A DNA stretch of 64,000 nucleotides from positions 62,001 through 126,000 of the IMG/VR virus record IMGVR_UViG_3300025789_001072. The stretch is one strand, 5' to 3'. This document shows, piece by piece, positions 2,426 through 21,608 of this stretch. A model generated the notes under the pieces. It did no database searches and was not told the origin of the DNA. It saw only the letters and a program-made list of their open reading frames with translations. The DNA is from a virus. Both the position numbers and the translations under genes were made by a program. Each line of letters begins with the position of its first letter. The first letter of the stretch is position 1.

Positions 2426-3517
2426 TTAAAATAAATCAACGGTTTCCCAAGGCAAACCATCTTTGCCAAAGTGTCCATAATTAGTCGTAGAACTATAGAT
2501 AGGACGGAACAAGTCAAACTTGTTGATGATACCAAGTGGCGTTAAATCAACATTCTCACGAATCCACTTAGTTAGTCCACGACTATCGCCATTGCTTTCA
2601 ACATAGAAACTCATTGGCTGTTCAAGCCCAATAGCATAAGATACCTGAACCGTTGCCCAATCTGCACGACCACTTGCTACAATATTCTTTGCAAGATAAC
2701 GCATCATATAAGCAGCAGACCTATCAACCTTTGTAGGGTCTTTGCCACTAAATGCACCACCACCGTGGGGAGCAGAACCACCGTAAGTATCGACAATAAT
2801 CTTACGACCAGTTAGCCCAGTATCACCATCAGGTCCACCAATAACAAATCGTCCAGTAGGATTAATATGAAATGTTGTACGAGTATCAACTAAACGATCA
2901 GGAAGAACGCTGCGAATAAGTTGTTCTACTCGTGTACGTACCGTATACATATCAGTATCTTCACTGTGCTGCGTAGAGCAAACTACCTTGTCAATACGAA
3001 ATGGATTACTATCATCATTGTATTCAACAGTAATTTGACTCTTGGCATCTGGACCAAGCCAATTACGTCCACTCTTACGATGTTCAGTAAGTGCCTTTAC
3101 AACTTCATGGCTATAATGAATAGCACTTGGCATATAGTTTGGGGTCTCATTGGTAGCGTAACCAAACATCAAGCCCTGATCGCCAGCACCAAACGTATCA
3201 GTGCCAAGTGCAATGTCAGCACTTTGTCCATGCATTAGATTAAGAACCTTTACAGTTCTCCAATCAAATCCACTTTGCTCATATCCAATATCACGAATAG
3301 TATTGATAACGGTTGCTTCAACCAATTGACGATCAAGTTCACCTTTATATTCACCTGCAATAACTACCTGATTGGTAGTGACAAGTGTCTCACACGCACA
3401 ACGATAAGACTTATCCTGCGGTGCCATCATTAAATCTAGAACTGCATCACTGATAGCATCAGCAACTTTATCTGGATGTCCTTCACTTACGCTTTCACTA
3501 GTAAACAGATAACTCAT
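2426..3517 (-). CDS. metK: S-adenosylmethionine synthetase
   Basis: Makes SAM from methionine and ATP in the cytoplasm. Visible signatures: GHPDK at residues 13-17, GAGDQG in the middle and GGGAFSGKD in the C-terminal half. At 363 aa it is slightly shorter than the usual ~385-aa bacterial enzyme, with the loss towards the C-terminus. The ATG follows AAAGGAAAATAA and sits directly after the uvsE stop, so it is cotranscribed from the uvsE promoter. SAM supply fits the three radical SAM enzymes and several methyltransferases in the window. Confidence 0.95.
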   Translation of the reverse strand: MSYLFTSESVSEGHPDKVADAISDAVLDLMMAPQDKSYRCACETLVTTNQVVIAGEYKGELDRQLVEATVINTIRDIGYEQSGFDWRTVKVLNLMHGQSADIALGTDTFGAGDQGLMFGYATNETPNYMPSAIHYSHEVVKALTEHRKSGRNWLGPDAKSQITVEYNDDSNPFRIDKVVCSTQHSEDTDMYTVRTRVEQLIRSVLPDRLVDTRTTFHINPTGRFVIGGPDGDTGLTGRKIIVDTYGGSAPHGGGAFSGKDPTKVDRSAAYMMRYLAKNIVASGRADWATVQVSYAIGLEQPMSFYVESNGDSRGLTKWIRENVDLTPLGIINKFDLFRPIYSSTTNYGHFGKDGLPWETVDLF

Positions 3518-4543
3518 TTATTTTCCTTTGGTTAATTCTTTGTGCAATTTAAAACTAGCAAGGTTCTTAGCCTTTGCTTCTACTTGTATATCAAAATCGT
3601 TCCATAGTTCGCCAATATAGTTATTGACTGCGCTGTTCCACATAAAGTCACTGTGTGCTCGCAGTGTGCCTTTCTTGTGACCACTTTCCATTAGTGTGGA
3701 TAGATCAGGTCTGCCAACACCAGTGATACCCATAGATTCACGACTAAGAGAGTAATGAAGAGAAGGGCGGACACCCCTCCAACTCTCCTTGACCATTTTA
3801 ATACGGTCGTCAGTTGGAGATAGGTATTCTCCCGAATGAATCCAGTGATGATGAGTATCAAAAACGATAGGCAAGATATCACCCAGAGTGAGACAAGCAT
3901 CAAGTCCATATGTATATTCCTCGTTTTCTATTGTGATGAGATTTCTAGCTTCGGGCGAGAGGCGGTTGTATACGGCTCGTATAGCCAACGGACCACCTTT
4001 GCCGCTAATATGCACATTGATCTTAAAACCGTGATCGTGCCAACTAGAACCAAAACCCATCCAACGAGCCAAGTCAGCATGATATTCAAATTCAGCAATT
4101 GAATTTTGAACAACACTTTCTCTGTCACTAGCAAGGACGCAAAATTGGCCAGGATGAAAACTGACCCTAACATCGAGACGTTTAGCAGCCTCTCCAACTT
4201 TGGCCAGTCGCTTTGCAATGGTTTCACGAAGGTGTTTATCAGTCCAGAAATGGCTCCAAGTTGACTCAGTGTAAACAGGAAGTATGTCGCTACTAAGGCG
4301 TACCATTCGTAATTCTGGTGCAAGTGTTCCCACACGCTCCACCAATCGTAATGTGGCATCTGTATTGTGCTCCATGATATCCCACAATCGTTGCTCGGCA
4401 ACTGCCTTAGTCTGGCGGTTTAACCAAGCCACTGTCGTGGTTTTGTTGTTATAGCGGAGTGCATCATCCTTGGGCTTAAAGCCACCAAGTTGATCCACGG
4501 TGTCAATCCATTTGCAGCAAAAGCCGATACGTTTTTGTGTCAT
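3518..4543 (-). CDS. uvsE: UV damage endonuclease UvsE/UvdE-like
   Basis: A TIM-barrel endonuclease that nicks 5' of UV photoproducts. Family features seen: N-terminal RIGFCCKW, SFHPGQF, ENEEYTYG and FDTHHHW, which hold the metal-binding His/Glu/Asp residues. I chose ATG 4543 (MTQKRIGF) over a TTG 18 nt further upstream, because a sigma70 promoter places the predicted +1 at this ATG, giving a leaderless message. metK follows with no gap. The length of about 340 aa is near the family norm. Confidence 0.9.
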   Translation of the reverse strand: MTQKRIGFCCKWIDTVDQLGGFKPKDDALRYNNKTTTVAWLNRQTKAVAEQRLWDIMEHNTDATLRLVERVGTLAPELRMVRLSSDILPVYTESTWSHFWTDKHLRETIAKRLAKVGEAAKRLDVRVSFHPGQFCVLASDRESVVQNSIAEFEYHADLARWMGFGSSWHDHGFKINVHISGKGGPLAIRAVYNRLSPEARNLITIENEEYTYGLDACLTLGDILPIVFDTHHHWIHSGEYLSPTDDRIKMVKESWRGVRPSLHYSLSRESMGITGVGRPDLSTLMESGHKKGTLRAHSDFMWNSAVNNYIGELWNDFDIQVEAKAKNLASFKLHKELTKGK

Positions 4544-18353: not shown

Positions 18354-19112
18354 ATGTTAAAAGACCAAAGCCTACCCGAATTAGCCGTTACTATGGCAGA
18401 ATTAGCAAGCGCAGCCTATCAAGATGACAATAAAGCCATCTATGCTGCTCTTGGATTTAAGAAATATAAATTTTTAGATAATGAAGGCGCACAAGGGCAT
18501 GTTGCTGCAAGTGATAGCGAAGTAATTGTTTCTTGCCGTGGAACACAACCTACACAGCCAAATGATTTACTTGCCGACCTTGATACTATTCCAAAGCGTC
18601 ACGGCAAAGGATGGGTTCATGAAGGTTTCCGTCGTGAAGCACGTAAAATTCTTGACCAAGTTTTAGATTGGGCAGCGAAGAATAAGGGCAAAGACATTTA
18701 TGTTACTGGTCACAGTCTTGGTGCTGCAATGGCACTTTATATTACCCAAGAACTAGAATTTGCTGGATATCCACCAACGAAACTTATGACCTTTGGACAG
18801 CCTCGTCTTGGAAATGCTGATTATGTGTCGGACATTAAAACTGACCACTATCGTTTTGTAAATTGTAATGATATGGTTACGCATGTGCCACCGCCAGTGT
18901 TGCTATTCAAGCATCATGGACAACTATGCTATATCAACTTCTATGGCAACATTCGTCCACTAAGCCGTTATCAACGCTTTAAGGATAGCATGAGAGCGCA
19001 TTGGCGTTGTTGGAAGAAAGGTCAATTGTTTGATGGACTATATGACCACAACATGGGTCTTTATATTGAAAAGTTGACCAATATTCGTGATACTGGTCAA
19101 AGTATTAATTAA
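18354..19112 (+). CDS. class 3 lipase (alpha/beta hydrolase)
   Basis: 252 aa. VTGHSLGAAMA carries the nucleophile elbow; FGQPRLGN, an Asp in NCNDMVTHVPP and a later His complete a Lipase_3 triad. No signal peptide, so it acts in the cell or in the virion. It could attack host phospholipids during lysis or entry. Late-type promoter. Convergent with the endolysin gene, with a 4-nt overlap, which supports a lysis role. Confidence 0.85.
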   Translation: MLKDQSLPELAVTMAELASAAYQDDNKAIYAALGFKKYKFLDNEGAQGHVAASDSEVIVSCRGTQPTQPNDLLADLDTIPKRHGKGWVHEGFRREARKILDQVLDWAAKNKGKDIYVTGHSLGAAMALYITQELEFAGYPPTKLMTFGQPRLGNADYVSDIKTDHYRFVNCNDMVTHVPPPVLLFKHHGQLCYINFYGNIRPLSRYQRFKDSMRAHWRCWKKGQLFDGLYDHNMGLYIEKLTNIRDTGQSIN

Positions 19113-19579
19113 TTTGCATCCGTATAAAACCAGTGGTGTCCTATCTTTCTAATAAACTTGAACTGTTTGTTCTTAAAAGGTTTATTATTAAAGTATAGAG
19201 CACCGCCGGTTGGATCAACCATATAGGTTGAATACAACACCATCATCGCAATGCTATAAAAATCATTGCGTTCATCTACCTTATCTATTGGCTTAAATGG
19301 AAAGCAAATAAAAGTAAACTGGCAATCCATACCATGTTTTTCATAAACAATCTTACATGGTGAGTTAGGAAACTTACCACTTTGCAATCTGTTACGAACT
19401 ACCCAAGCAATAGCAACTTGTCCCTGATAGTCTTCGCCACGAGCCTCATTGTAAACGGCTTGAGCAACACACTCGCTAGGATTTTCCACAACAATAGGTT
19501 TTTGGGGTTTGGGGTCTTTGGCTAAAACAGGATAACTCACTGTTAAGAGCAGCGCCAAAGAGATTAAAAATTTTTTCAT
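19109..19579 (-). CDS. cell-wall hydrolase, SleB/Hydrolase_2 family (endolysin candidate)
   Basis: 156 aa from ATG 19579. Residues 1-20 (MKKFLISLALLLTVSYPVLA) are a signal peptide or signal-arrest segment. The catalytic part has AVYNEARGE, the conserved Glu of SleB-type lytic enzymes, then VAIAWVVRNR and CQFTF. Signal-mediated export would not need a holin. A longer frame starting upstream overlaps the tmRNA and is not credible. It directly follows the tmRNA terminator. Confidence 0.85.
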   Translation of the reverse strand: MKKFLISLALLLTVSYPVLAKDPKPQKPIVVENPSECVAQAVYNEARGEDYQGQVAIAWVVRNRLQSGKFPNSPCKIVYEKHGMDCQFTFICFPFKPIDKVDERNDFYSIAMMVLYSTYMVDPTGGALYFNNKPFKNKQFKFIRKIGHHWFYTDAN

Positions 19580-19587
19580 CGCCCTCA

Positions 19588-19606
19588 ATAAAAAAGTGCA
19601 ACTTTT
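19588..19606 (-). terminator. terminator after tmRNA
   Basis: AAAAGT-TGC-ACTTTT followed by T/A on the minus strand. It lies between the tmRNA coding piece and the endolysin ATG. Confidence 0.6.
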
Positions 19607-19890
19607 CTGTTTCGAGGTAAGTTGCCAACCCAAGAAATTAAGCTACTAGAGCCATTTCAATTAATGCATTATCGTTAGCATTTATTACGTTTACTAACAT
19701 CTACTCAAAACCTTTACTACACCTGTCGATCCTAATTGCCGCCCATCAAAGATACACCGTCATGGACTCAAACCATAATAGCATTAGAGTTAACTAATCT
19801 ATGTATCATACCCCACGTCTGGGCAGTGTATCTATGGTGGACGGCGAGAGAATTGCACTCTCGTCCAGCATGTTTATTCTGTTTTGCCTC
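19592..19890 (-). ncRNA. ssrA: tmRNA, circularly permuted (two-piece) ssrA
   Basis: Read on the minus strand the acceptor piece comes first: T-arm GAGAG-TGCAATT-CTCTC, then GCCGTCC-A-CCA ending at 19835. The coding piece starts at 19744 with GGGCGGC, which pairs fully with GCCGTCC, then AGGATCGACAGG, the tmRNA D-loop signature. The ~90-nt intervening loop is closed by AGATACAC/GTGTATCT. A GTTTTG/CAAAAC P2 helix links the pieces. Tag codons 19679-19638 encode ANDNALIEMALVA and stop. This organisation is the one known in Alphaproteobacteria. It rescues stalled ribosomes and tags peptides for proteolysis. Confidence 0.92.
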
Positions 19891-19908
19891 AACAATATTA
19901 GTATGTTA

Positions 19909-19937
19909 TTTATAGCATAGGGAAAGGGTTATGTCAA
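19909..19937 (-). promoter_or_regulatory. sigma70-type promoter of tmRNA
   Basis: TTGACA at 19932-19937, 17-nt spacer, TATAAA at 19909-19914. The sequence CTATAAATAACATAC is shared with the promoter at 21580-21608. The TATAAATA string also resembles a late promoter, so both early and late use is possible. Confidence 0.75.
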
Positions 19938-19940
19938 GGG

Positions 19941-20735
19941 TTAAATTATTTTATCCCAACTATCCAGATCAGATAACATTTCGTGAAATATAATACCAGG
20001 ATGTTTACAATCTCTTGCAAATGATTTTTTCTCTTCCATTGTAGAAAATGCTATTTTTAATTTTTCTTCATTTACTGAAAACAAATTAATATTATTTTCA
20101 TATGCAATAAATTTTATAGCATTCCAATTTCTATGCCAAAATATCTGTTGTTCATCATCGCCTGAAAAATAATTTTGATATGCATATTCATAGAAAAACA
20201 TATTTTCTTTACTAAGATTATTTCTTTGAGAAAAATCATCAGTTAATACCCAATTACCAATGCCATCACTTTGTTGTTTTTTTCTAATAAATTCTCTACG
20301 ATTTTTAAATAGTCCCATTATATAAACATTCTTTTGTTTAATAACTGGTAACCATGCCGCCATTAAACGATACATTGTTTCAATCCCAGCACCAGATTGG
20401 CTAAGATTGTAAAAACACCCACCAATTTTTCTGTTAATTTTATATCCGCATGTATCTTCTATATTAATACCATTTCCTGCAAGTATACTGCATCCTAAAA
20501 AAACATTCCCTTCTTCTGGGTTTTCCAAATTAAAATTATCTGGTGTTCTAAATCCATAATTGTTATAGGAATATATTATCTCAGCATCTATCCAATTATT
20601 TTTTTCTAATAAAATTTTATTTTCTTTTAAATTTTTTTTATATGTCTCAATAGAATCTCTATTTGCATACTTTAAAATTTTATTTGATTCATTGTAACTA
20701 TATGAAAAATTATTGAAAAATTCTTTATCAGACAT
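19941..20735 (-). CDS. SGNH-like protein
   Basis: Central VFLGCSILAGNG corresponds to an SGNH block I (GCS in place of GDS), followed by Asn-Leu-Ser-Gln-Ser-Gly-Ala-Gly-like block II (FYNLSQSGAGIETMYRL), and a C-terminal DCKHPGIIFH with Asp and His. It has about 80 extra N-terminal residues compared with the other copies. Start at 20735 (MSDKEFF) overlaps the upstream stop; 20753 is also open. Very AT-rich. Confidence 0.6.
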   Translation of the reverse strand: MSDKEFFNNFSYSYNESNKILKYANRDSIETYKKNLKENKILLEKNNWIDAEIIYSYNNYGFRTPDNFNLENPEEGNVFLGCSILAGNGINIEDTCGYKINRKIGGCFYNLSQSGAGIETMYRLMAAWLPVIKQKNVYIMGLFKNRREFIRKKQQSDGIGNWVLTDDFSQRNNLSKENMFFYEYAYQNYFSGDDEQQIFWHRNWNAIKFIAYENNINLFSVNEEKLKIAFSTMEEKKSFARDCKHPGIIFHEMLSDLDSWDKII

Positions 20736-21570
20736 TTTTTGTTTGGTCGTCAATATAGGCTAAGATTTGAAATGCTTCTGCGGGATTATCAAGACTTAAA
20801 CTGCTCTTGATGTTTGTTTTAAGACGACCTTGACAACGATAACCAGCATTTAATATCTTGATGGTTTCATTACCAATTTTTTTCACCACGCCACCATTTC
20901 GTCCAAGTCTAAATTCAATTTGGATTTGACCTTCAAATTTTGGCACGGGCAGATCGTATATGTTATCATTAAGGTAGAACAGACCAGCACCACCGATCTG
21001 AATATAATATACTTTTTTCAGATTATATGCTTTAGTGATGATCGATGTATCATTAAAATTAACTTTTTCACCAAGTGCTGCGAGTAAACCAGCACTTTTG
21101 GCATTATTCCATGCTTTGCTCGTAATTGCACCAATAGGAAAACTATCAATTCTGCTATGCATTTCCACGGGTTCTTGCTTTTGAACAAATTCGATATAGT
21201 CAATGATAGCTTGCTTCTTTGATTGCACCGCATTTAGAAAATATGGCTGCGCTTCATCATCAATAGTATCACTGTTTACTATCTCAGCCAGATCGGTTGC
21301 GGGATTATACCGAATACTGGTGCCGCCCATTTGCGCATCTTTATTTTTTTTAATCTCAATATTAAACGGTGCGCCATTAACTTGCAATTCAAGATCAATA
21401 CCTACGCTGCTATAACCAGCAGTGGCAAAGTTAAGATTGGTAAACTTAACACGGTCTTGAAAGTGTGGAATTACATGTTGCACAGATTTTACCACAGCAC
21501 TTTCATATTCTAAACCGCCTGAATTAATACTCATTTCGGTTATGCTTTCTGTGATCTCGTGAATCTTCAT
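20728..21570 (-). CDS. PD-(D/E)XK-like nuclease candidate, 280 aa
   Basis: Residues ~45-75 hold GYSSVGIDLELQ...PFNIEIKKNKD, the spacing of Asp and Glu-x-Lys expected for a PD-(D/E)XK core. No clear DNA-binding domain. The N-terminus MKIHEITESI resembles other genes here (MRAVEFLSEI, MKLLEVAPDF), perhaps a shared targeting or processing segment. Own sigma70 promoter close to the ATG, with no Shine-Dalgarno. Nuclease assignment is tentative. Confidence 0.5.
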   Translation of the reverse strand: MKIHEITESITEMSINSGGLEYESAVVKSVQHVIPHFQDRVKFTNLNFATAGYSSVGIDLELQVNGAPFNIEIKKNKDAQMGGTSIRYNPATDLAEIVNSDTIDDEAQPYFLNAVQSKKQAIIDYIEFVQKQEPVEMHSRIDSFPIGAITSKAWNNAKSAGLLAALGEKVNFNDTSIITKAYNLKKVYYIQIGGAGLFYLNDNIYDLPVPKFEGQIQIEFRLGRNGGVVKKIGNETIKILNAGYRCQGRLKTNIKSSLSLDNPAEAFQILAYIDDQTKNV

Positions 21571-21579
21571 GGTATGTTA

Positions 21580-21608
21580 TTTATAGCCCTAAAGTTATAA
21601 CTTGTCAA
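21580..21608 (-). promoter_or_regulatory. sigma70-type promoter close to start codon
   Basis: TTGACA at 21603-21608, 17-nt spacer, TATAAA at 21580-21585, then 9 nt to the ATG. It shares CTATAAATAACATAC with the tmRNA promoter. Predicted leader is 0-3 nt. Confidence 0.7.

Follow-up and report, generated by a model that had tools for sequence, protein, structure and literature searches.

The 64,000-nucleotide stretch of DNA analysed here (the window) carries, on its minus strand at 19595-19941, a complete gene for a circularly permuted tmRNA of the alphaproteobacterial type, as identified by covariance models and by ARAGORN. The match to RF01849 (alpha_tmRNA) is full length and scores 89.9 bits (E=4.8e-23), above the curated cut-off of 50, and that to RF04321 (tmRNA_permuted) is likewise full length at 84.9 bits (E=8.1e-15; curated cut-off 47). 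Among the alpha, beta and cyano models of the clan the window's match is RF01849, and its relatives fall under the same model. ARAGORN calls a permuted tmRNA with the tag ANDNALIEMALVA, and the predicted fold has a z-score of -3.05, none of 100 shuffled sequences being equally stable. Downstream of the tmRNA is a gene for an endolysin-like cell-wall hydrolase of the Hydrolase_2/SleB type (19109..19579, minus strand, ATG at 19579), which matches PF07486 in Pfam (1.3e-19) and the PHROG endolysin family (5.8e-15) and has a signal-peptide-like N-terminus. An earlier note on this DNA had proposed a phage-encoded, circularly permuted tmRNA of the alphaproteobacterial form beside an endolysin gene, and the covariance models, the base-pair covariation and the conserved synteny described below bear this out. 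A DNA similarity search with positions 19200-20400 among isolated phages gave no match.

The permuted order is visible directly, with the 3′ acceptor half lying 5′ of the coding half and a 90-nt segment between them; all of the features that follow are on the minus strand. The acceptor piece, or tRNA-like 3′ half, spans 19835..19904 (5′ end approximate; from the RF01849 and RF04321 alignments and covariation). It contains the 5′ strand of the D-stem (CATGCTG, 19872-19866), the T-arm GAGAG-TGCAATT-CTCTC (19862-19846, by direct reading) and the 3′ strand of the acceptor stem (GCCGTCC, 19845-19839), followed by the encoded ACCA that ends at 19835. The T-loop TGCAATT is non-canonical, as are the T-loops of alphaproteobacterial tmRNAs (GGCGGTA). 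The intervening segment (19745..19834), which is presumed to be excised, is closed in the predicted fold by a 10-bp helix between AGATACACTG (19833-19824) and CGGTGTATCT (19759-19750). The coding piece starts with the 5′ strand of the acceptor stem, GGGCGGC (19744-19738), whose third pair with GCCGTCC is the wobble G3.U70, the alanine identity pair; A73 and the encoded CCA of the alanine identity set are also present. The D-loop motif AGGATCGAC (19733-19725) and the 3′ strand of the D-stem, CAGGTG, together occupy 19717..19733 in the RF01849 alignment, and the tag frame (19638..19679; ARAGORN and translation) runs from the resume codon GCT to TAA, encoding ANDNALIEMALVA*. The acceptor pairing, the D-loop motif, the closed intervening loop and the tag codons had all been named in the earlier note, as had a sigma70 promoter in front and a terminator-like hairpin behind, and each was located by direct reading.

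The putative sigma70-type promoter (19909..19937, minus strand) consists of TTGACA at 19937-19932, a 17-nt spacer and TATAAA at 19914-19909, with the extended -10 element TGCTATAAAT. Syntenic relatives keep TTGACA-N17-TATAAA with diverged spacers. At the other end of the gene GCAACTT and AAGTTGC form a hairpin (19625-19598, minus strand) with the 14-nt loop ACCTCGAAACAGAA, followed by T6 at 19595-19590, and hairpin and T6 together are likely to be an intrinsic terminator. In the alignment to RF01849 this hairpin falls at the 3′ end of the model, and in relatives its stem is re-paired and its loop related. A simple promoter and terminator scan listed neither signal: the final A of TATAAA kept the promoter out, and the hairpin loop exceeds the 8 nt that the strict terminator scan allows; the support for both as candidate signals comes from their conservation in relatives. 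The exact promoter pattern occurs twice on the minus strand of the 64-kb window, the second copy (21580-21608) being just upstream of an ORF at 20728-21570.

The source record (G000), a linear viral contig in IMG/VR, is 130,704 bp long and comes from a lake phage. Matches to contig G010 (338,435 bp), mostly in the same order, were found for 56 of the 63 window ORFs tested, and the match leaves G010 at one end and resumes at the other, so that G010 looks circular or circularly permuted. The window's phage looks like a fragment of a jumbo phage (~340 kb) similar to G010, whose terminase is nearest, among jumbo phages, to those of PA5oct (53.6%), Atu_ph07 (51.7%) and Phosso (50.4%). The fragment encodes, among others, a ribonucleotide reductase, a DnaB-like helicase, a primase, a baseplate-type protein, DnaJ and S-adenosylmethionine synthetase. 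An alphaproteobacterial host is likely because of the tmRNA type and the Rhizobiales hosts of two of the nearest terminase relatives among isolates; the case of phage Melnitz illustrates that the tmRNA type of a phage can differ from that of its host (PMC9004378). The S-adenosylmethionine synthetase gene, metK (window 2426-3517), is 93-96% identical in close relatives and ~75% identical in many large phage contigs. It was rejected as a lineage marker, the ~75% relatives being other huge phages, and only those at 93-96% were taken as close kin. Elsewhere in the record (G000 L004:10872-12923) a 683-aa protein combines a CHASE2 sensor with adenylate/guanylate cyclase domains, adjoined by RimK-like and glycosyltransferase genes.

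Comparison of the tRNA-like domains of related phages bears on whether the structure is maintained. Across 24 distinct phage domains every pair of the T-arm and acceptor stem is standard, and 9/12 pairs have changed on both sides. With strands extracted under a pairing requirement, G3.U70 not being imposed, the covariation score for the 24 distinct combinations is 0.671 vs 0.136 +/- 0.023 in shuffles. When the extraction was repeated with no pairing criterion, using simply whichever CCACCA lay closest upstream of the D motif together with the first GGG preceding that motif, 7/7 acceptor pairs were found in 24/24 combinations and the full T-stem, in fixed register, in 22 of the 24. Acceptor positions 4-7 vary freely among these domains, with G3.U70, A73 and the encoded CCA invariant. 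Most relatives retain the helix closing the intervening loop with different base pairs, and the 3′ hairpin occurs as GCAACTT/AAGTTGC, GCAACCA/TGGTTGC, GGTGGGA/TCCCACC and GGGGGGA/TCCCCCC. The acceptor stem, the T-arm and the 3′ hairpin thus all carry compensatory changes, which show that the structure is under selection.

The window's tag frame has an alanine resume codon, a hydrophobic, alanine-ended C-terminus and a stop codon. Tags at the endolysin locus differ among relatives yet retain the AND-N start and an L-A/V-A end, reading after ANDN as ALIEMALVA, ALIEMALAA, APFEMRLAA, ASFEMRLAA, AFTEMSLAA, NAYDLRLAA, MAYDLRLAA, MAHDLRLAA, FAFEHALVA and APVEMRLAA. The suggestion made beforehand that the ALVA ending might route tagged proteins differently found no support: the nearest relative, L014, has ALAA through one C-to-T difference and L033 also ends in ALVA, so special routing is an unnecessary assumption. 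In E. coli, LVA acts as an ssrA degron. Outside the window, at G000:1172-3409 (L002), lies a gene for a 745-aa ClpA-like protein that matches TIGR02639 at 832.6 bits, under the equivalog cut-off of 993, and the E. coli ClpA structure 1ksf with an E of 2.5e-186. An IGF tripeptide (IIGFGGG) is found at about the position of the ClpP-docking loop of ClpA, as judged from sequence. The G010 counterpart is 78% identical, and a DnaJ gene (G000 3440-4318) adjoins the unfoldase gene. ClpA-like proteins were present in 9/9 huge-phage records searched, which also hold shorter AAA+ ORFs of ~400 aa, and ClpP in 5 of 11; ClpP was not found in G000 or G010. It is plausible that the phage unfoldase would act with host ClpP on tagged proteins, and the finding of both genes in one phage suggests that certain jumbo phages supply not just a tag but also a component of the machinery that may recognise it. 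SmpB was not found in the 24 phage records searched, and function is therefore presumed to depend on host SmpB.

We consider it about 85% probable that a jumbo phage of ~340 kb has here a functional gene for a two-piece tmRNA, which works together with host SmpB in ordinary trans-translation. The anatomy of the gene, its conserved structure, the synteny and the co-encoded ClpA-like gene are direct observations, and from them we infer transcription, processing, charging, tagging, degradation and benefit as follows. The host-type sigma70 promoter would give a single precursor ending at the 3′ hairpin, from which host tRNA-processing enzymes would excise the 90-nt intervening loop, leaving the acceptor piece with its CCA end and the coding piece, which the acceptor and D-type stems would keep together. 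The molecule would be charged by host AlaRS via G3.U70, and together with host SmpB and EF-Tu it would enter ribosomes that have stalled on mRNAs that are broken or lack a stop codon. The sequence (A)ANDNALIEMALVA would then be appended to the incomplete protein, and at the stop codon of the tag the ribosome would be released, the LVA tail routing the product to Clp protease, possibly via the phage ClpA-like unfoldase and host ClpP. The most likely benefit would be that ribosomes and amino acids are kept available during destruction of host mRNA.

Scanning viral contigs for the endolysin gave 21 viral loci. Wherever the contig extends far enough upstream, the endolysin gene is immediately preceded by a permuted tmRNA on the same strand (the contig of L013 starts inside the tag). 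In most relatives the hairpin and T-run are immediately 5′ of the endolysin start codon. The pair is kept in distant phages, with endolysin identities of 56% (G009), 48% (G010) and 42% (G012).

Within this arrangement the tmRNA segments do not track the flanking genes. Between the window and L015 the first 120 nt of the endolysin gene are 97% identical, the acceptor piece 61% and the tag 64%, and L025 and L015 share the acceptor, intervening loop, D region and tag at 99-100% with endolysin genes at 75%. The window and L025 have the same 3′ tail (100%), the rest of the tmRNA being 58-64% identical. L029 and L025 are 90% identical in the intervening loop and 52% in the acceptor, and L030 and L019 are 100% identical in the tag and tail and 63% in the acceptor. 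The window and L014 share the intervening loop at 97%, and both halves of their acceptor stems differ in matched fashion. A single acceptor stem, CGCCTCC/GGGGGCG, is common to 50 of 62 parsed alphaproteobacterial tmRNA genes, a sample of better covariance-model scores in which divergent lineages are under-represented. The phage alleles of the lineage all come from metagenome assemblies, in which chimeras are possible; several of them recur across contigs of different metagenomes. No recent bacterial donor of the divergent L020 and L015 alleles was found, since BLAST against 385 alphaproteobacterial genomes, run without a positive control, gave only 29-38-nt matches for the L020 tmRNA and no match for that of L015.

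A tentative and, on balance, rather doubtful reading of these patterns is that promoter, tmRNA, hairpin and endolysin form a fixed locus at which phages circulating together exchange tmRNA modules. Recombination of the acceptor, intervening-loop, tag and 3′-hairpin segments would be independent of the flank, helix halves would arrive matched, and tagged products would be fed to the phage-encoded ClpA. Such turnover could reflect selection for phage-phage over phage-host pairing of the pieces, or escape from a host nuclease that attacks tmRNA. Module exchange at a fixed locus beside an endolysin looks new, a literature search of partial coverage having turned up no description of it or of the tmRNA-endolysin arrangement.

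The same-strand adjacency in every assessable relative, down to 42-56% endolysin identity, and the usual position of hairpin and T-run, immediately ahead of the start codon, also raise the idea that the locus mainly controls lysis, in which case transcription past the hairpin, or the supply of free ribosomes, would time production of the adjacent endolysin. Adjacency alone is, however, no proof of coupling; ~440 extra bases separate the two genes in L032 and L124, and other phage groups have a tmRNA that lacks an endolysin neighbour, so we regard this role as improbable. We think it quite improbable, too, that the tRNA-like domain is an interfering decoy, mainly titrating SmpB of the host or competing with its tmRNA, a role that has been proposed for the RNA of mycobacteriophage DS6A. 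A tRNA-like-only phage tmRNA does exist, and a molecule of this kind has an inhibitory effect on tmRNA (PMC4131195, PMC11915505), and the lack of an SmpB match in the 24 phage records would fit, but the whole coding piece, with its resume codon, L-A/V-A tag end and stop, is kept across relatives with differing tags, and a decoy would not need it. The DS6A molecule is without a tag frame, whereas the window tmRNA has one and is not of that tag-less type.

A functional gene for trans-translation also accounts better for the locus than a functionless passenger captured on integration at host ssrA. Integration often targets tmRNA genes, and fragments of ssrA can be carried by phages (PMC9004378), but the gene here is a complete one, promoter and hairpin included, its acceptor stem, T-arm and 3′ hairpin carry compensatory changes, and its D-arm pattern was found in only 4 contigs of 84,980 species genomes vs 35 viral contigs, which makes this origin very improbable. 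Host contamination or misassembly, conceivable in that the lineage's records are all metagenome assemblies, can be given almost no weight, as the same arrangement occurs in many contigs of several metagenomes and in the collinear 338-kb phage G010, and the isolated jumbo phage Phosso also has a permuted tmRNA.

Taken as a tmRNA for trans-translation, the window gene resembles the alphaproteobacterial permuted tmRNAs (RF01849, RF04321) in its order of acceptor piece, intervening loop and coding piece, in G3.U70 and the encoded CCA, and in the GGATCGAC motif, the ANDN tag start and a related 3′-end loop (...AACAGAA). Unlike them it is phage-borne, its intervening loop is 90 nt vs 9-76 in the bacteria sampled, and the phage acceptor and T-stems are highly variable. 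Two-piece tmRNAs in phages are as such already published: Buchholz et al. 2022 (PMC9004378) describe two-piece ssrA in the Methylophilales phage Melnitz and in pelagimyophages, and the 53 two-piece forms among their 133 unique phage tmRNA structures contradict the earlier view that permuted phage tmRNAs are rarely described. Melnitz, a lytic myophage of 141.5 kb, likewise has a complete permuted alphaproteobacterial-like tmRNA; its ssrA precedes a transcription coactivator and is accompanied by a glutamine riboswitch, whereas that of the window precedes an endolysin in a jumbo phage. No riboswitch family, including the Melnitz-type glutamine riboswitch, exceeded its Rfam cut-off in the window. 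The tmRNA database holds 79 bacteriophage entries (PMC11915505). In the parts of these sources covered here, huge phages are described with tmRNA and SmpB (Al-Shayeb et al. 2020, PMC7162821) and the jumbo rhizobiophage AP-J-162 with tmRNA, Clp proteins and DnaJ (PMC11242549). These are large phages with a tmRNA like that of the window, AP-J-162 also sharing Clp and DnaJ, and the same parts do not describe the permuted form, module exchange or endolysin synteny; unlike in those huge phages, SmpB was not found in the 24 phage records searched here.

Phage tmRNAs have been catalogued and apparently hardly tested. In this lineage a single locus occurs as a series of related alleles that differ in tag and keep the structure intact, which allows one to ask whether such tmRNAs serve to rescue ribosomes, to recycle protein, or have to be kept orthogonal to the two-piece tmRNA of the host. 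As a search pattern, TAGGATCGACNNGNNNNNNGTNAAGG gave six matches in viral contigs and was set aside, the five checked by covariance model holding no tmRNA. A separate family of permuted tmRNAs with long tags is found in huge phages (L114-L116, L118 and L311-L329; viral contigs, including phages of 133-347 kb). The tags are 27-29 codons long in two ARAGORN-called examples, ANVNKTVTVSGKNIKFSARSAKEALAV and ANASKGEVTVSGKGIRFSARTAQRQTLAV, and have a core VTVSGKxIxFSAR, mostly ending in LAV; the core pattern occurs in 19 contigs in several distinct variants. Conservation of this core suggests that the tag has a role beyond marking for degradation. One contig, G017 (IMGVR_UViG_3300032562_000004), has two different permuted tmRNAs (143658-143932 and 172862-173101), with tags ANDESYALAA and of the long VTVSGK type. 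An unannotated stretch of Sinorhizobium phage Phosso (PV764938.1, 349596-350198; L254) contains a permuted tmRNA whose intervening segment measures 410 nt and whose tag is ANDNVSTKVALAA, making this isolated jumbo phage a culturable test case.
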